Shown piece by piece: positions 1 through 8,055 of a stretch of 64,000 bases of DNA. Every line of letters begins with the position of its first letter. The stretch's first letter is position 1. The position numbers and the translations under genes were made by a program. The stretch comes from an uncultured Paracoccaceae bacterium. Its GTDB lineage: Bacteria; Pseudomonadota; Alphaproteobacteria; Rhodobacterales; Rhodobacteraceae. The notes below the pieces were generated by a model, which made no database searches, was not told the DNA's origin, and saw only the letters and a program-made list of their open reading frames with translations. The DNA lies in contig CANNFR010000005.1 in the NCBI GenBank assembly GCA_947503935.1, positions 124,001 to 188,000 of the forward strand. Direction: 5' to 3'.

Positions 1-1
1 C

Positions 2-715
2 CGGCTGATCGTCAGCGAGGGGATCGTGCTGAACGGTTTGAACGCAGAGCTGTCGACCGCGAACGGGCTGAGCGGCCGGTTCAACGGGCGTCTGGCCGGG
101 CAGGCGCCGCTGCAAGGCGTGCTGGCGCCCTCGCGCGAGGGGACGGCGGTGCGCATCCAGGCCGCCGATGCGGGCGCTGTCTTGCGCGCCTCTGGCCTTT
201 TGCAAAGCGCGCGGCGCGGCCAGCTGGACCTGACGCTGGTGCCGCTGCCGGGCGAGGGCCGCTATGACGGGCGCGTGGCGGTCAGCAACCTGCAGATCCG
301 CGGCGCGCCGGCGCTGGCCGATCTTCTGGGGGCGATCAGCGTGGTCGGCCTGATCGAGCAGCTGAACGGCCAGGGCATCGTCTTTGGCGAGGTGACGGGC
401 GAGTTCACGCTGGAGCCGCGCGGCATCACGCTCCGCCGTGGCAGTGCGGTCGGCCCGTCGCTGGGCGTGTCGATGTCGGGCATCTACGATCTGCGCTCGA
501 AGGTCATGGACATGCGCGGCACCGTCTCGCCCATCTATCTGCTGAACGGCATCGGCGAGATTTTTGGCCGCCGGGGCGAGGGGCTGTTTGGGTTCAACTA
601 CCGCCTTGCCGGGCCCGTCTCGCAACCGCGGACCGAAGTGAACCCCCTGTCGATCCTGACGCCCGGCATGTTCCGCGAAATCTTCCGCACCGCACCCCCA
701 CAGCTGACGCAATAG
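2..715 (+). CDS. AsmA-like/DUF3971 C-terminal region protein (5' truncated by window edge)
   Basis: The reading frame is open from base 2, so only the last 237 or so codons are present; the GTG at 26 is internal. The visible part is a repetitive beta-rich sequence with the layout of the AsmA-like C-terminal domain found in large envelope proteins of the YhdP/TamB-type superfamily, which are thought to help lipid transport between the two membranes. Near the end it reads as glycine-rich strands (LLNGIGEIFGRRGEGLFGFN) followed by the tail REIFRTAPPQLTQ. A diverged copy of this tail and stop codon occurs again at 2420-2470. The assignment is from sequence style only, and the upstream part would decide it. 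Confidence 0.6.
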   Translation, partial: RLIVSEGIVLNGLNAELSTANGLSGRFNGRLAGQAPLQGVLAPSREGTAVRIQAADAGAVLRASGLLQSARRGQLDLTLVPLPGEGRYDGRVAVSNLQIRGAPALADLLGAISVVGLIEQLNGQGIVFGEVTGEFTLEPRGITLRRGSAVGPSLGVSMSGIYDLRSKVMDMRGTVSPIYLLNGIGEIFGRRGEGLFGFNYRLAGPVSQPRTEVNPLSILTPGMFREIFRTAPPQLTQ

Positions 716-764
716 CGCCGCCACGAGACCAGCATGACCACCGCAGCCGCCACATTTGCTGCAG
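671..764. repeat. Copy A of a duplicated gene-junction sequence
   Basis: Bases 671-721, which encode the last codons and stop of the AsmA-like gene, match 2420-2470 at 43 of 51 positions by hand alignment. Bases 725-764, which lie beyond the stop, match 2541-2581 inside alaE (24 of the first 27 bases are identical). Relative to copy B, copy A lacks about 66 bases at the alaE stop. Read on the minus strand, 725-764 still translates like the alaE C-terminus (AAVVMLVS versus AAVIMLIS), so it is an alaE remnant. Confidence 0.7.
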
Positions 765-856
765 GTCGGCGAAGGTCCGCTCTTCCCGCCCCGAGCCGCC
801 AAAGAGTTAACACAATTGGCGATTATTGGAAGTTTTGATTTGATCAGGAGTTTGTC

Positions 857-2416
857 ATGATCCGTAATTTTTTCGTCCTCCCTGCGCTATGCGCGGGTTA
901 TTTTGCGTGCTCTGTAGCTGCTGTTGCACAAACCGATCCAGAAGACATTCGCAGCCGCCTGTTGGCCGCCGCTGCTGAGGATTCTGAGATCCGTGATTAC
1001 CTGCGTCGCACCGAAGCCATCCTTTCACGGAACGGTAAAGGGCAGGCTATGAGGCGGATACTTGCCTTGTTGTTTCAGGTATCTCCCCGGGGTGAAGTTT
1101 CGATCGGCGATATAACCAGACAACTGGAACAAGAGAGGGCCGCCCGCAGGGCCGGACACATATCGTCCGTGCTGTCCTGGGATCTCGACGGTGATGGCGC
1201 TCTGCAAAAAGCTGAACGGGACCAAATCATCGGAGCAGCGCGCGTCCAGATTGAGAGTCTCATTGCGGACGCTGACAGCAACGGCGACGAACAATTGTCC
1301 TTCGAGGAATTGCTTGCGGTCGCGGACGAGGCTGCATCTGCCAACACGAGCCACCAATACTCAATGCTGATGGTGTTCGATGTCGACCAGGATGGCACAG
1401 TCGTCGTATCGGAGGTCTCGGACACGCTTGATGTGCTTGGCGCGTTGCCGCTCGATCTCGGCCAACGCGCTAACCGCCCGCAGAGCCAGCCTCGTGCGAA
1501 TTGTGATGCACCCAAGCCCGCCGAGACCGACCAGGTCGTCGTGCTGAGCGGTTATGATGGCTCGGCCTTGTCGACCGTCACGATAGCTGGGCCGGACGCG
1601 GTCACCCAGGTTGCACGGCTGCGTATTGAAGAAGGCGAGCAGCCGATATACCTGTTCGTGACCGCGCATTCGAATGTTATCTGGGACGTTTCCGGTGCAA
1701 CCGGAAGGCTGAAGACGATGGTGGTGCAGGCTCGGAGCGCTGGCAATGGGATCGCTGGCGGTGTCATTGGCATGCCAAGCGAAAAGGTGCACTTTGTTCG
1801 AGATCAGAGCTGCATGCTGTCCTACGCCCCAATTGAAAGTCAGGAAGGAAGCCGCGCCCTCCAGCAGATAACTGGTGGGCTGGGCCGCGCGCCGGACCTG
1901 ATGCTTTCGTTCTATACGATCGGTCAACTCGATCTGCCCTCAGGTACGGGAACGACTGGTCAGGGCGAAGGCCGTGACATCATAGTCTACGGTGATCGGC
2001 GCTACCAATTCACGCCGGACGGCCCACGGGCAATTGATGAGGCTGAGGGCCAGCTTCCAGACAAGTACCCCTTCGGAGCAAGCATCGTCTACACTTCACT
2101 GCTTCGGTTCCATCCAGACGGTGTTCGCACAATCGATCCCGACAGCGTCGTTTCACCGATCGATCCGCAGAACTATGACGTCCTTCCGCAGGAGGCGGGC
2201 CTTTTGCAGTTGGTGCTGGACGGGCGCTTGAGGCGGGAACGAACCGGACCATTTACGATTGTCGCGCCAATCGAAAGGTTTCCCGCAGGCCTTAACGGTG
2301 CACATAGAGTGGACTTCGTACTTAGTCAGGACGTGCCGATGCCCGCGGGTTCACCGGGACATTCCTCTGTGTCCTCGGCAGAAACCGGAGAATGCCTTGC
2401 AGGTTTTTGCCGATAG
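857..2416 (+). CDS. Secreted EF-hand protein of unknown function
   Basis: The 519-residue product has a Sec-type signal peptide (residues 1-25, ending AAVAQ) and probably acts in the periplasm or outside the cell. EF-hand-like calcium loops occur at about 109-120 (DLDGDGALQKAE), 138-150 (DADSNGDEQLSFE, one residue longer than the canonical 12) and 175-186 (DVDQDGTVVVSE). The remaining 300 residues match nothing I recognise. The start at 857 follows a GGAG-like site. Base composition is less GC-rich than its neighbours, and the gene is bracketed by two copies of one gene junction, which suggests it was acquired as an insertion. The EF-hand call is firm; function is unknown. Confidence 0.8.
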   Translation: MIRNFFVLPALCAGYFACSVAAVAQTDPEDIRSRLLAAAAEDSEIRDYLRRTEAILSRNGKGQAMRRILALLFQVSPRGEVSIGDITRQLEQERAARRAGHISSVLSWDLDGDGALQKAERDQIIGAARVQIESLIADADSNGDEQLSFEELLAVADEAASANTSHQYSMLMVFDVDQDGTVVVSEVSDTLDVLGALPLDLGQRANRPQSQPRANCDAPKPAETDQVVVLSGYDGSALSTVTIAGPDAVTQVARLRIEEGEQPIYLFVTAHSNVIWDVSGATGRLKTMVVQARSAGNGIAGGVIGMPSEKVHFVRDQSCMLSYAPIESQEGSRALQQITGGLGRAPDLMLSFYTIGQLDLPSGTGTTGQGEGRDIIVYGDRRYQFTPDGPRAIDEAEGQLPDKYPFGASIVYTSLLRFHPDGVRTIDPDSVVSPIDPQNYDVLPQEAGLLQLVLDGRLRRERTGPFTIVAPIERFPAGLNGAHRVDFVLSQDVPMPAGSPGHSSVSSAETGECLAGFCR

Positions 2417-2419
2417 AGG

Positions 2420-2581
2420 ATCCGCGAGATCTTACGCACCGCCCTGCCACGGCTGGCGCAATAGCGCCGCTTAGCGCCGCCTGCGCGATAGCCCGTACCA
2501 TCGGCGCACCAGATCCAGCCAGAGCCCATAGGGCCGCCCTGAGATCAGCATGATCACCGCAGCCCCCGCGCTGGCATGCAG
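2420..2581. repeat. Copy B of the duplicated gene-junction sequence
   Basis: Immediately after the EF-hand gene stop, 2420-2470 repeats the 3' end of the AsmA-like gene (84 percent identical to 671-721). It still encodes REILRTALPRLAQ and a stop codon, but with no gene body in front. It runs straight into the intact alaE 3' end, whose stop is at 2471-2473; 2541-2581 corresponds to 725-764. This copy therefore preserves the convergent arrangement of the AsmA-like gene and alaE. Confidence 0.7.
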
Positions 2582-2890
2582 TACTTCTGGCCCAGCCGCC
2601 CCGCTCGACCACACGATGGCTGCGTAGAGCGGAACCTGGAAGCTGAGCAGGGCAAGGGTGTCAAACCAGAATGCCCGCATTGCTCCGCAATGTGTTGCGC
2701 CCGAGCGATCCATGACCCAGTAGCGCCAGAGGCCGTAGGGCCGTGCCGTCAGAACCATCAACGGCGCGCCGATCAGCCGCGCCTTGGCAACCTCGGACCA
2801 GTCCATTCCGGCGACATACCTCTCGTTGAGCATACCGGTCAGTGTGAAAAAGACGACCAGCGCCGTCGTGTCGGCTAGGAAGTTTCGCAT
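2471..2890 (-). CDS. alaE: L-alanine exporter AlaE family protein
   Basis: A 139-residue inner-membrane protein with about four hydrophobic segments, the usual size of AlaE (149 residues in E. coli). Recognisable family features are the N-terminal ADT motif, RLIGAPLMVLTARPYG after the first segment, DTLALLSFQVPLYAAI in the middle and a second PYG near 125. AlaE exports L-alanine by proton antiport and protects against alanine accumulation from peptides. The gene diverges from a MarR-type regulator; its probable promoter (TTGCGC, 17 bp, TATTAT, on the minus strand at 2924-2952) overlaps operator-like dyads. Its C-terminal coding end is partly duplicated at 725-764. Confidence 0.85.
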   Translation of the reverse strand: MRNFLADTTALVVFFTLTGMLNERYVAGMDWSEVAKARLIGAPLMVLTARPYGLWRYWVMDRSGATHCGAMRAFWFDTLALLSFQVPLYAAIVWSSGAAGPEVLHASAGAAVIMLISGRPYGLWLDLVRRWYGLSRRRR

Positions 2891-2908
2891 GATCTGTCGC
2901 CTGAATTA

Positions 2909-2960
2909 ATATGTGCGGCACATATAATAGAAAGATTGAACTATGTGCGCAACACACATA
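2909..2960. promoter_or_regulatory. Divergent alaE/marR promoters with two MarR-type operator dyads
   Basis: A perfect dyad ATATGTGC-G-GCACATAT lies at 2909-2925. A second related dyad (TATGTG, 7 bases, CACATA) lies at 2942-2960. A TATAAT -10 hexamer for the regulator sits at 2923-2928. On the minus strand TTGCGC (2947-2952) and TATTAT (2924-2929), 17 bp apart, form a good alaE promoter. The dyads overlap the shared -10 region and the alaE -35, which is where a repressor controlling both genes would bind. Confidence 0.65.
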
Positions 2961-2970
2961 TGTTGAGATT

Positions 2971-3462
2971 ATGACATCTATACATCCTGAGAATGTGGTG
3001 GGCGCTCTGGCGCTGACGCTCTCTGATCAGATCGTCGCGACGGCTGATACCTTTCTGCCGCGTCATGAACCCGCCAAAGCGATTGCCTTCATCGGTCGCG
3101 AAGCTGGGATCACCATCCAGCGGCTGAGTGATCAGATGCGCCTCTCCCATGCCGCGACGCTGCGGATGGTTGATCGGTTGGTGCAGGACGGAATGGTTTG
3201 CCGGTCTGCCTCTGCCGAAGACCGGCGGGCTGTTCTGCTTTCGCTGACGGAAGAGGGGCGTCGTATCTATGCCGACATTCTTGTCGCACGATCCGCATGT
3301 ATCGCTGAGGCGCTGGATGCCCTTACAAAGGCCGAGCGTGCGCAGTTTGGCCAGCTTGCAAGCAAGATCCTCGCCGCGCTTGCGACGACGCCCGATCAGG
3401 CCGCGCAAAGCTGTCGGTTCTGTGATGTTCCCGCTTGCAAGAATTGCCCGGTCGACGCCTGA
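2971..3462 (+). CDS. MarR family transcriptional regulator with C-terminal cysteine cluster
   Basis: I start the 163-residue protein at ATG 2971. An upstream in-frame ATG at 2911 lies inside the palindromic operator and before the likely transcription start, so it is unlikely. The winged helix-turn-helix is clear ([32 protein letters not shown] followed by [14 protein letters not shown]). The C-terminus carries four cysteines spaced C-x2-C-x4-C-x2-C ([12 protein letters not shown]), a tail seen in some MarR proteins and suited to metal binding or redox sensing. By its divergent position and the shared operators it probably represses itself and alaE. The inducer is not apparent. Confidence 0.8.
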
Positions 3463-3538
3463 CCACCATACCCTCACCCCTCTCTGGCAGGATGTTTTGG
3501 GGTTGCCTTCGCTGCCAGTTTTTGCGCATGCCAGCCCC

Positions 3539-4594
3539 ATGAAACTGTCGGATTTCGATTTTGATCTGCCCGAGGGGCGCATCGCCACGCGGCCTGCGCG
3601 GCCCCGGTCGTCGGCCAAGCTGCTGGTCGCCGTAAATGGCGGCATTGCCGATCATATCGTGCGTGATCTGCCGCAGATCCTGCGCCCTGGTGACCGGCTG
3701 GTTCTGAACGACACCAAGGTGATACCCGCGCGTCTGACCGGCACGCGATCCCGGGCCACCACCTCGGGCGATGGCGTGGCGAAGATCGAGGTGACGTTGC
3801 TCGAGCCGCAGGCCGATGGCAGCTGGGCGGCCCTGGCCAAGCCACTGCGCAAGTTGCGCATGGGCGAGGAGGTGGTGTTCTCGGACCACCTCTCGGCCGA
3901 GGTTGCAGCCTTGGCCGAAGGGCAGGTCCTGTTGCGCTTCAATCTGACGGGCGAGGATTTCGATGCCGCCCTGGCCGAGGCGGGCGCCATGCCGCTGCCG
4001 CCCTATATCGAGCGGCTCCGCGCCCCCGACGCGGCCGATCGCGAGGATTATCAGACCGTCTGGGCCCGCCAGCCCGGCGCCGTCGCCGCGCCCACCGCCT
4101 CGCTGCATTTCGATGCGCCGCTTCTGGCGGCCCTGAAAGAGGCCAGCGTTCAGTTCACCCATGTCACCCTGCATGTCGGTGCGGGCACTTTTCTGCCGGT
4201 GAAGGTCGACGACGTGACCACCCACAAGATGCATGCCGAGAGGGGCGAGATCACCGCCGAAGCGGCCGCCCAGATCAACGCCACCCGCGCGGCCGGCGGG
4301 CGTGTCATCCCCGTCGGCACCACGGCCTTGCGCCTGATCGAAAGTGCTGCAGCGAAGGACGGCACGCTTCAGGCCTGGCAGGGCGAGACGGATATCTTCA
4401 TCTATCCCGGCTACCGGTTTCGCATCACCGACGGGCTGATGACCAATTTCCATCTGCCGAAATCGACGCTTCTGATGCTGGTCTCCGCCCTGATGGGACA
4501 GGACCGGATTCGCGATATTTACGATCATGCAATCAATCACGATTACAGGTTTTTCAGTTATGGCGATGCGTCGCTTCTGATTCCCGCGCCGTAA
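3539..4594 (+). CDS. queA: S-adenosylmethionine:tRNA ribosyltransferase-isomerase QueA
   Basis: QueA transfers and isomerises the ribosyl group of SAM onto 7-aminomethyl-7-deazaguanine in tRNA, giving epoxyqueuosine. The 351-residue product has the usual family length and motifs: the [16 protein letters not shown] start, [37 protein letters not shown] and the C-terminal [15 protein letters not shown]. The frame stays open upstream to 3269, but family alignment and the ATG at 3539 fix the start. The next gene on the same strand begins 87 bp downstream and need not be functionally linked. Confidence 0.95.
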
Positions 4595-4681
4595 GCGGAC
4601 CCCAGGCTGTCGCGGGTGGGCTATACGCGGGCCGGAAGGCGCGATACCGAAGCCACAACTTTCCGCTGAAAGGCGCATCTG

Positions 4682-5944
4682 ATGTTTGGCGTGCTGCGAA
4701 CCACCTGGCCCCTCTTTTTGGGGCTTTTGTTCCTGATGCTGGGCAACGGCATGCAGGGCACCCTCCTGGGCGTGCGCGGCGATTACGAGGGGTTTTCCAC
4801 CGGCCAGATGTCGCTGATCATGTCGGCCTATTTCGCGGGGTTCCTCGTCTCCAGCAAGGTCGCGCCCGAGCTAATCCGCAAGGTCGGACATGTGCGGGTC
4901 TTCGCGGCACTTGGCTCGTTCATTTCGGCGATCCTGATTCTCTTCCCGACGGTGACCGAGGTCTGGGCCTGGATCGCGCTGAGGGCGCTTATGGGGTTTT
5001 GCTTTTGCGGCGTCTATATCGTGGTCGAAAGCTGGCTGAATGACAGCGCCACCAACGAGACGCGCGGCCGGTCGATGTCGCTTTACCTGATCGTGCAGAT
5101 GACAGGCGTGATCGCGGCCCAGGGCATCATGAATGTGGGCGATCCGCGTGAATACATCCTCTTCGTGATCCCCTCGATCCTGGTGTCGATCTCCTTCGCG
5201 CCGATCCTTTTGTCGGCCAACCCCGCGCCGTCCTTCAGCACCACCAAGAGGATGAGCCTCGGCACCCTCTTCCAGACCTCGCCGCTCGGCTGCGTTTCGG
5301 TCTTTCTGCTGGGCGGCGTCTTCTCGGCCATCTTCGGCATGGCCTCGGTCTTCGGCACGCAGGCCGACCTCAGCGTGCGAGACATCTCGATCTTCATCGC
5401 GGTGATCTACACCGGTGGATTGCTCTGCCAATACCCTATCGGCTGGTTTTCCGATCGCATGGACCGCCGGTTGCTGATCCTGGCGCTGGCGGCATTTGGC
5501 GCGGTATCGCTGTTGCTGGGCGTTTTCTTTTGGAACAATTACACCGTGCTTCTGGTGGCGGGCTTCATCATCGGAGGGGCCGCCAACCCGCTTTATTCGC
5601 TGGCCATCGCCTATACCAATGACCACGTCGATAACGATGATATGGCCGCGGCCTCGGCGGGGCTTTTGTTCATAAACGGGGTGGGCGCTATTGGCGGGCC
5701 GCTGGCCGTCGGCTGGATGATGGGCCTTGTCGGCCCGGGCGGATTCTTCTTGTTCAACGCGGTGCTTCTGGCGGTCATGGCGGGCTACGCTGCCTGGCGG
5801 ATGACACGGCGCCCGACGCCTGTCTCTTATGAGGCGGGCGCCTATGTGCCGATCGCACCCACCTCGACCACAATCGCGACAGAGGCCACGATCGAGGCAG
5901 GATATGACGATTTCGAAACCGATCGCGAAGCCGCTAAATCATAG
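4682..5944 (+). CDS. MFS transporter, YcaD-like
   Basis: A 420-residue polytopic protein with about twelve membrane segments and the YcaD/UMF2-like layout (LRALMGFCFCGVYIVVESWLN in the fourth to fifth segment region, and PIGWFSDRMDRRLL as the conserved loop between halves). An AAAGG site precedes ATG 4682. The hydrophilic tail of about 50 residues has many Thr, Glu and Ala. Substrate cannot be read from the sequence; the family is poorly characterised. It is convergent with the DUF1513 gene of the iron operon, with a 50-bp gap and no obvious terminator. Confidence 0.8.
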   Translation: MFGVLRTTWPLFLGLLFLMLGNGMQGTLLGVRGDYEGFSTGQMSLIMSAYFAGFLVSSKVAPELIRKVGHVRVFAALGSFISAILILFPTVTEVWAWIALRALMGFCFCGVYIVVESWLNDSATNETRGRSMSLYLIVQMTGVIAAQGIMNVGDPREYILFVIPSILVSISFAPILLSANPAPSFSTTKRMSLGTLFQTSPLGCVSVFLLGGVFSAIFGMASVFGTQADLSVRDISIFIAVIYTGGLLCQYPIGWFSDRMDRRLLILALAAFGAVSLLLGVFFWNNYTVLLVAGFIIGGAANPLYSLAIAYTNDHVDNDDMAAASAGLLFINGVGAIGGPLAVGWMMGLVGPGGFFLFNAVLLAVMAGYAAWRMTRRPTPVSYEAGAYVPIAPTSTTIATEATIEAGYDDFETDREAAKS

Positions 5945-5994
5945 CGCGTAGGGTGCGGGCTCTGCGTCGTCCTGGGGCGCCGCAAGGCACCTTT

Positions 5995-7065
5995 CTACAA
6001 CGCAACAATGTGATTGTCCCAGGCGCAATCCTGACGCGCCAGAACTGTCGGTCCGTTCCGCCCGATGGCGATCAGGCCGCCCAGCCCGTCGCTGGCCAGA
6101 TATCCGTCTTTCCGCGTCGCGAGGCCGCAGATGTCGGACCGGGACACTGCACTGAGGAATGTTCCGCCATCCGAAAAGCGGTGCAACCGCCCGCCGCGTG
6201 GCGAGGTGATGGCCAGTTCCGATCCGTCGCCACTGAATGCCACGCTGCCCGCATAGCCTTGCATCGCCAGTTCGTCCGCCAGCGGCGCCTCGGCCAGAAC
6301 GGGCGCGCGGCCCATGCGATGCAGGCCCAACAGCGGCACGGCCGCGCCCGGATCGCCTTCCCATTGCATCGCAAAACCCACCAGACCATCGGCGCGGATT
6401 GCCAGATGGCGGATCGAGTTCTGGTGTAGGTCGGCCTCCAGTTCCAGCCGGTCCTGCCGCGTGCCGTCCAGTGACAGATAACTCAAATTCGGACGCATCG
6501 TCTCCAGGTTCAGCTTGCGGCGGTCGGCAGGGTCCGTGGCGATGCCGCCATTGGCGACGACCAGGGTTTGACCATCAGGCATCAGGCGCAGATCGTGCGG
6601 CCCGATGCCACCGCTTTCGATGGCGCCGATGCGCCGATAGCCAGCCTCAACATCCCAAAGGCCGATCATGCCGACGCTGCTATCGCTTTTCTGCTCGCTG
6701 GTCAGCAGCAGCGCGCCGCCTTCGGCAAAGACGCCGTGTCCGCTCAGGTGGTGCCCGCCCGGCGGTGACAGATTGTGCAGAATGTCACCGGTGGCGCAGT
6801 CGATCACCAGAGCGAACGTGCCAGGGCGGCGGGCAAAGGCGACGGCTTCGGCGCGGCGCGGGTGACGGGCGCCGGCATGGCCCCGCGCGGGCAGGGGCAC
6901 ATGGAAGGTGGGCCTGCTGCTTTCGGACAAGCCAAAAAGTGCAAAGCCTCGGTCAGGGGTCCTGGCGGCTGCCAGGTAGGCGGGGTTGCCGACCGACGCC
7001 CAGCCAAAATGCGGCGCGGTTCCGGCGGCCAGCAACGATGCGAGGAAGCCCCGGCGCGTGGTCAT
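5995..7065 (-). CDS. DUF1513 domain protein, last gene of imelysin-type iron operon
   Basis: The 356-residue product starts with a twin-arginine-like signal (TRRGFLASLLAAG), so it is probably exported folded to the periplasm. The body is repetitive with WD-like blades (for example GHGVFAEGGALLLTSEQK and GPHDLRLMPDGQTLVVANGG), typical of DUF1513 beta-propellers. Genes of this family regularly follow imelysin and di-heme DUF1111 genes and are assumed to assist ferric or organically bound iron acquisition; the exact role is unknown. Its start lies 3 bp after the preceding imelysin gene, so the four minus-strand genes very likely form one operon. Confidence 0.85.
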   Translation of the reverse strand: MTTRRGFLASLLAAGTAPHFGWASVGNPAYLAAARTPDRGFALFGLSESSRPTFHVPLPARGHAGARHPRRAEAVAFARRPGTFALVIDCATGDILHNLSPPGGHHLSGHGVFAEGGALLLTSEQKSDSSVGMIGLWDVEAGYRRIGAIESGGIGPHDLRLMPDGQTLVVANGGIATDPADRRKLNLETMRPNLSYLSLDGTRQDRLELEADLHQNSIRHLAIRADGLVGFAMQWEGDPGAAVPLLGLHRMGRAPVLAEAPLADELAMQGYAGSVAFSGDGSELAITSPRGGRLHRFSDGGTFLSAVSRSDICGLATRKDGYLASDGLGGLIAIGRNGPTVLARQDCAWDNHIVAL

Positions 7066-7068
7066 GGG

Positions 7069-8055
7069 TCAATCTCCGTCCAGCGCGTTAAAGCCCGGTT
7101 CAATGCCATATTCTGCGCCGATTTCAACCTCGATCGTCTGACGCAGGTCGGCCACGGCCTGTTGCAAGACCTCGGCGCGCAATCGGCCCTGAGGGGCGGC
7201 CACATCCTGAAAGGCGGGGTCTTCGATCCGCTCGGCGGCCAGCCGGACCCTCCCAAGGGCAGCGTCCGTTTCGGGCAGGTCCCAATCGGCCAGGGCCGCT
7301 GCCAGATCATGCGCGGCCTCGGCGGCCAGCACCACGTTGCGCAAGCTCCGCCTGGACCGGCGCGCTTCGGCCAGGGTGGGGCGCGGGCGGTCGAAACTGC
7401 CCATCGGCTGCCCCAGGCGGCGGTCGGTGGTGAATTCCACCGATGACAGGATCTGCGTGTAGAGGGCTCGCAGGGCTTCGTCCGGGGAAAGGTAGGTCGC
7501 GTTCCCGGCGTCGCCCGCGCTGCGGAGTGTTTGCGCGAAGTCGGTCTGCCAGGCCCTGTCCAACGCGGCCGCCTGATGGCCCAGATCGGCGGCAATCGTC
7601 GTGACCAGATCGCAGGTGTAGCTGCCGGGTGCATAGTCCGCGAAGGCCGCATCGTAGAGCAGCATTTCCAGCGCGAAGAGGCCCCGCGCGGCGATTGAGA
7701 CCTCGGCGTAATCCTGCGGATTGAGGGCGACGGGATCCTCCTCGGCGATGAAGCGCGCAAGGGTGCGCTGGGTGGCGCCGCGCGGGTCGGGCCAGAAGGC
7801 CACCGACAACGCACCGGTCTCGGACGGCCCAAGGCGCAGGTCGGCCACTGGCATCCAGGCGTCGAAGGCGGCCTGATAGGCCGGGCGTACGGCCTCGGGC
7901 CGACAATCGAGCGCGGCGGTCTGGGCCAGTGCATCGGCCCTGTCGGCAAAGGCCGCGAAGGCGGGCAGGATATGCCGATCGAGCGCTGTCTCAACATCCG
8001 CCGATGCGGGCAAGGCCAAGCCAAACGTTAGCGCAAGGATCGGCAGCGCCCTCAT
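7069..8055 (-). CDS. Imelysin-like periplasmic protein lacking the GxHxxE motif
   Basis: A 328-residue protein with a Sec signal peptide (residues 1-19, ALPASA). It has the helical imelysin fold pattern, with a mid-protein helix RGLFALEMLLYD where metal-binding imelysins have G-x-H-x-x-E. The histidine is absent here, so this copy probably does not bind iron the way its upstream paralogue could. Its ATG overlaps the stop of the di-heme gene (ATGA), indicating translational coupling. Pairing of one canonical and one degenerate imelysin in an operon with DUF1111 and DUF1513 is a recurring arrangement; the division of labour is unknown. Confidence 0.8.
   Translation of the reverse strand: MRALPILALTFGLALPASADVETALDRHILPAFAAFADRADALAQTAALDCRPEAVRPAYQAAFDAWMPVADLRLGPSETGALSVAFWPDPRGATQRTLARFIAEEDPVALNPQDYAEVSIAARGLFALEMLLYDAAFADYAPGSYTCDLVTTIAADLGHQAAALDRAWQTDFAQTLRSAGDAGNATYLSPDEALRALYTQILSSVEFTTDRRLGQPMGSFDRPRPTLAEARRSRRSLRNVVLAAEAAHDLAAALADWDLPETDAALGRVRLAAERIEDPAFQDVAAPQGRLRAEVLQQAVADLRQTIEVEIGAEYGIEPGFNALDGD

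Follow-up and report, generated by a model that had tools for sequence, protein, structure and literature searches.

How did an EF-hand gene come to lie between an AsmA-like gene and alaE, and why is the junction of these two genes present twice, once on either side of the newcomer? Both questions are raised by a locus near the start of the 64-kb stretch of DNA that was analysed as a whole and is called the window below. The answer that we consider probable, if with some reservation, is that the EF-hand DNA was inserted with duplication of the AsmA/alaE junction, in a two-stage history in which alaE and its neighbour marR would have arrived first.

Results

Two copies of one gene junction bracket the EF-hand gene

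The original prediction held that the 3' end of the AsmA-like gene recurs behind the EF-hand gene, and 671-721 and 2420-2470 are indeed identical at 43 of 51 positions. Comparing 401-856 with 2351-2950 by blastn aligned the AsmA part of the junction (672-721 with 2421-2470) at 43/50 bases (E 5e-13) and the alaE part (712-751 with 2528-2567) at 34/40 (E 3e-9). The second recurrence, that of the alaE 3' region, had been placed at 725-764; it holds as far as 751 (24 of 27 bases shared by 725-751 and 2541-2567), but 752-764 match no better than random sequence. Homology to alaE beyond 751 was rejected, since random 52-mers of the window scored as high as the extension past 751/2567, or higher, in 63 of 300 cases.

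GC-rich DNA lifts background matching, and the two junction copies could in principle resemble each other by chance. This explanation is refuted by the E values together with a window-wide repeat scan, and we regard it as practically negligible. As predicted, the similarity lies above chance level: the best other placement of either junction 51-mer in the 64-kb window reaches 31/51, and the two junction pieces are the sole direct repeats of at least 36 bp, spaced within 6 kb, that pass 78% identity. When 660-860 was searched against the whole genome, no third junction copy emerged; besides the query itself and copy B, there were four matches of 16-48 bp with E values of at least 0.12.

The matching pieces are spaced by 1749 (AsmA part) and 1816 (alaE part), which indicates one collinear junction of which copy A lacks ~67 bp present in copy B. 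In copy B, the missing stretch is bounded by ATAGCGCCGC (2461-2470) and ATAGGGCCGCC (2528-2538), and a single ATAGCGCCGCC stands in copy A where copy B has both. Copy A is the junction of copy B minus ~67 bp, with the loss falling between two 10-11-mers that are nearly identical. In each copy, the half retained is just the one that adjoins a living gene, in collinear order. Between the copies, GC content drops from 0.80 to 0.35 at ~801, inside the insert, and copy B starts 4 bp after the stop codon of the EF-hand gene (Table 1). The alaE product passed the Pfam test for the AlaE exporter with 142.8 bits (cut-off 25).

Table 1 Features of the AsmA-queA interval in the window
Feature	Coordinates	Strand	Basis or remark
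AsmA-like gene, 3' part, intact	2..715	+	whole open frame 1107 aa, start outside window
Junction copy A, AsmA part (living gene end, stop codon 713-715)	672..721	+	blastn, spacing
Junction copy A, alaE remnant, noncoding, antisense of alaE 3' part	712..751	+	~67 bp of junction missing before remnant
Non-repeated insert between junction copies	752..2420	.	sharp GC fall at ~801
EF-hand gene, 519 aa	857..2416	+	N-terminal signal-peptide-like stretch by eye; EF-hand loops; conserved uncharacterised C-terminal half
Junction copy B, AsmA 3' end relic, noncoding	2421..2470	+	blastn, comparison with relatives
alaE, L-alanine exporter family, intact	2471..2890	-	PF06610, E 9.9e-42; 2528-2567 is the counterpart of the copy A remnant
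MarR-family regulator, divergent from alaE	2911..3462	+	ATG at 2971 as alternative start
queA, usual downstream neighbour of AsmA-like gene	3539..4594	+	

Relatives carry AsmA followed by queA

Scanning the named genomes with the C-terminal part of the AsmA-like protein yielded 366 stretches that encode a relative, and the comparison used the best 80 loci. In every one of these 80, queA comes after AsmA and lies on the same strand; the gap between them measures no more than 141 bp in 79 loci and 1094 bp in one (L057). The ~1.1 kb between AsmA and queA in that locus (L057 3612-4705) represent a separate insertion in the same interval.

Neither alaE nor marR nor the EF-hand gene was detected in any of the 80 fetched stretches, which come from other genera. 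The original prediction had proposed looking for strains without the EF-hand gene, and all 80 loci lack it beside AsmA; it had also expected relatives with an AsmA/alaE junction and missed the usual order, AsmA then queA. Relatives of the AsmA-like gene occur in 368 of 394 family genomes and matches to alaE, some of them weak, in 17; at 16 alaE-hit loci of other genomes, the flanks (up to 1.5 kb) contained none of AsmA, queA, marR, and the EF-hand gene. Because relatives have AsmA then queA without alaE or marR, the AsmA/alaE junction is derived and alaE-marR is an earlier insert between AsmA and queA. The order of arrival follows from the scar itself, since both junction copies already contain alaE. 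Among the relatives compared there was no empty AsmA/alaE site, no donor, and no genome of the same genus.

The divergent gap between alaE and marR (2908-2960) holds two palindrome-like sites, TATGTGCGGCACATATA and TATGTGCGCAACACACA. A pattern drawn from these same sites gave 10 matches, 8 of them overlapping 2908-2960, against 1.2 expected. The sites are possibly MarR-type operators.

Changes in the two junction copies

The AsmA parts of copies A and B differ at seven positions, and the three nearest relatives are unanimous at four of these, siding with copy B at 679 and 697 and with copy A at 685 and 696. Both changes private to copy A are synonymous. The two private to copy B alter amino acids, F to L and P to L; the former falls in a REIF motif kept by nearly all of the best 80 relatives, a count for which the motif is pushed out of the aligned stretch by an added end in some tails, and the site of the latter is P in most of the 80. 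Silent changes in copy A and amino acid changes in copy B are what would be expected if one junction was duplicated, with copy A remaining under selection as a gene and copy B free. This polarity rests on four sites, too few to decide. Over the AsmA tail, the copies agree with each other at 37/44 positions, barely more than either agrees with L058, from another genus (35/44), so either their divergence is old or they stem from two sources related to each other.

The EF-hand gene belongs to a small, patchily distributed family

The protein encoded by the EF-hand gene matches PF00036 with 26.4 bits (cut-off 25.4) and has EF-hand loops at about positions 109-120, 132-155, and 172-195. A profile made from four family members matches calmodulins over positions 109-207, among the 60 matches listed only within profile positions 96-208, and a Pfam scan of four members returned only EF-hand models, plus a weak dockerin match in one member. 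The C-terminal half of the family is long and conserved and has no Pfam match. XopAW, an NCBIfam type III effector family, matches 857-2416 with 37 bits against a cut-off of 120, and the protein is therefore not filed under XopAW; the match seems to reflect EF-hand similarity only. A single-sequence structure prediction gave a mean pLDDT of 34. Judging from its loops and its signal-peptide-like N-terminus, the protein would be exported and calcium-binding.

Strong matches to the C-terminal half were found in four of 394 family genomes, namely this one, G310 (54%), G003 (40%), and G388 (39%); weak partial matches in two further genomes bring the number to six. At the level of the class, four of 376 genomes passed E 1e-15, with this genome itself and partial matches counted. 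All four members align to the very C-terminus, which indicates that the gene in the window is complete. The loci of the other members are L143 3758-5329, L144 4728-6269, and L145 4174-5829. The family gene is flanked by genes for a UvrD-type helicase and a universal stress protein in G388, a solute-binding protein and an OmpA-type protein in G310, and an epimerase-type protein and YebC in G003. No repeats bracket these three loci in a comparable manner, the only matches being of 22-27 bp at 71-77%. Searches of plasmids, phages, and IMG/VR did not recover the EF-hand gene, nor did PHROGs.

The patchy distribution in unrelated contexts and the absence from the same place in close relatives both point to horizontal acquisition, as does an atypical composition: GC3 is 0.62 in the EF-hand gene and 0.63 in marR, compared with 0.76 in alaE, 0.79 in queA, and 0.89 in the AsmA part. 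Because marR is also low, the two inserts cannot be told apart by composition alone. Taken together, the EF-hand gene is a rare and probably foreign, imported one.

Clues to the mechanism

Neither the insert nor its surroundings showed a transposase, an integrase, or a tRNA (1-8000 covered for tRNA); the original prediction, too, had noted no transposase. The EF-hand frame fills the insert; there is no pair of inverted repeats at the ends of the insert to suggest a transposon, and no integrase gene in 752-2420 to suggest an integrative element. Ku (PF02735) has no match in this genome (G000), with control matches obtained in Bacillus subtilis, which speaks against Ku-dependent end joining, and we rejected that route. 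Insertions in plants have been modelled as paired-nick repair. DNA uptake is conceivable, since the genome encodes a ComEC-family protein, although the clue is weak because the family was also matched in 10 of 14 control genomes, including E. coli. Gene transfer agents are particularly well conserved in Rhodobacterales, as stated in an excerpt of PMC9836097. Single crossover and homology-facilitated illegitimate recombination (excerpt of PMC3240628) as well as duplication on transformation (excerpt of PMC3784515) could each, as known processes, leave a scar of this kind.

Discussion

Three findings uphold the claim that the EF-hand gene was inserted and has an AsmA/alaE junction on either side: its absence from this place in the relatives, the rarity of its family, which has other neighbours elsewhere, and its low GC3. 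We envisage that in a first stage alaE-marR would have entered between the AsmA-like gene and queA. In a second, a foreign segment of at most ~1.67 kb with the EF-hand gene would have entered the AsmA/alaE junction and duplicated at least 147 bp of it (2421-2567 in the coordinates of copy B). The left side would then have held AsmA whole with a broken alaE end behind it, and the right side alaE whole with a broken AsmA end in front; the unused halves would have decayed, copy A losing ~67 bp between two short near-repeats. Most likely, incoming DNA recombined by means of a junction copy: a linear or circular molecule carrying the EF-hand gene beside such a copy could have joined the chromosome by a single crossover (Campbell type), or by homology on one side combined with illegitimate joining on the other. 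We infer such an origin in one step from the form of the scar. No direct trace of circular or linear donor DNA is left at the locus, and it counts against the two-stage insertion that neither a donor nor an empty AsmA/alaE site was found in the best 80 of the 366 loci, as does the lack of flank repeats around the other three EF-hand genes.

A related species could instead have supplied a segment with the EF-hand gene beside its own AsmA/alaE junction, so that copy B (or A) was different on arrival. The identity between the copies, close to that of either with L058, would suit such an origin, as would copy B keeping the relatives' bases at 679 and 697, where copy A differs, and the conservative nature (G/A and I/V) of the changes at three codons of the alaE remnant. 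However, copy B alters an F that is nearly invariant and a P that is commonly conserved, changes that are unlikely in a living donor gene, and the best 80 loci held no donor, just as plasmids, phages, and IMG/VR held no EF-hand gene. A diverged donor for copy B is possible, but it is not needed, and we give it a minor though real chance. Of the proposal that the gene entered with or via a diverged second junction, the insertion thus stands and the diverged donor is the less probable part, since the pattern of decay fits one duplicated junction.

An identical end product would result if the AsmA/alaE region was first doubled in tandem and most of one alaE and one AsmA was then deleted or replaced by the EF-hand gene. 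The 67-bp loss from copy A shows that deletions occur at this locus, but such a history requires more steps, and copy B begins so close behind the EF-hand stop codon as would be expected of a single join; we hold it to be unlikely. Integrative elements at gene 3' ends leave a relic 3' end on the far side, and the scar, with its insertion at a gene 3' end and a relic at the far side, could be read as that of an element which used the AsmA 3' end as its attachment site, brought in a replacement end for the gene, and lost its integrase later on. Yet the repeat also takes in part of alaE past the AsmA stop codon, the 1.67 kb leave no integrase-sized frame besides the EF-hand gene, no tRNA lies in 1-8000, and the other EF-hand loci are without flanking repeats, all of which makes this reading quite improbable. 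Still more improbable is that the EF-hand family travels as single-gene cargo by a transposase-free route, matching no known element, that leaves duplications of ~150 bp at gene ends.

Insertion with duplication of the junction, the reading that we prefer, makes this scar a small but clear record of gene gain without a visible mobile element. The approximate limits of the foreign DNA can be read from it, and its two copies decay in mirror image. The locus also draws attention to a small family of EF-hand proteins, uncharacterised and probably secreted, whose C-terminal half is conserved.

The protein resembles EF-hand calcium-binding proteins (PF00036) in its Pfam-recognised loops and its matches to calmodulins, and is unlike them in its long C-terminal half. 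The target sequence on both sides of the insert recalls the target-site duplication of transposons, but here it measures ~147 bp, and neither a transposase nor terminal inverted repeats were seen. In the merodiploids made by transformation of Streptococcus pneumoniae, DNA uptake likewise ends in duplicated chromosomal sequence, although the duplications described in the excerpt of PMC3784515 span ~100-900 kb and arise between repeats, compared with ~147 bp here. In Campbell integration and homology-facilitated illegitimate recombination, homology at one site links incoming DNA to the chromosome, and after a single crossover the homologous segment flanks the insert on either side, as at this locus (excerpt of PMC3240628). 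The system in that excerpt is experimental and fresh, whereas ours is deduced from an old scar whose copies diverge by 14-15% and for which no donor was found. The class of mechanism is already established, and the locus adds a further example of a known, ordinary kind of event.
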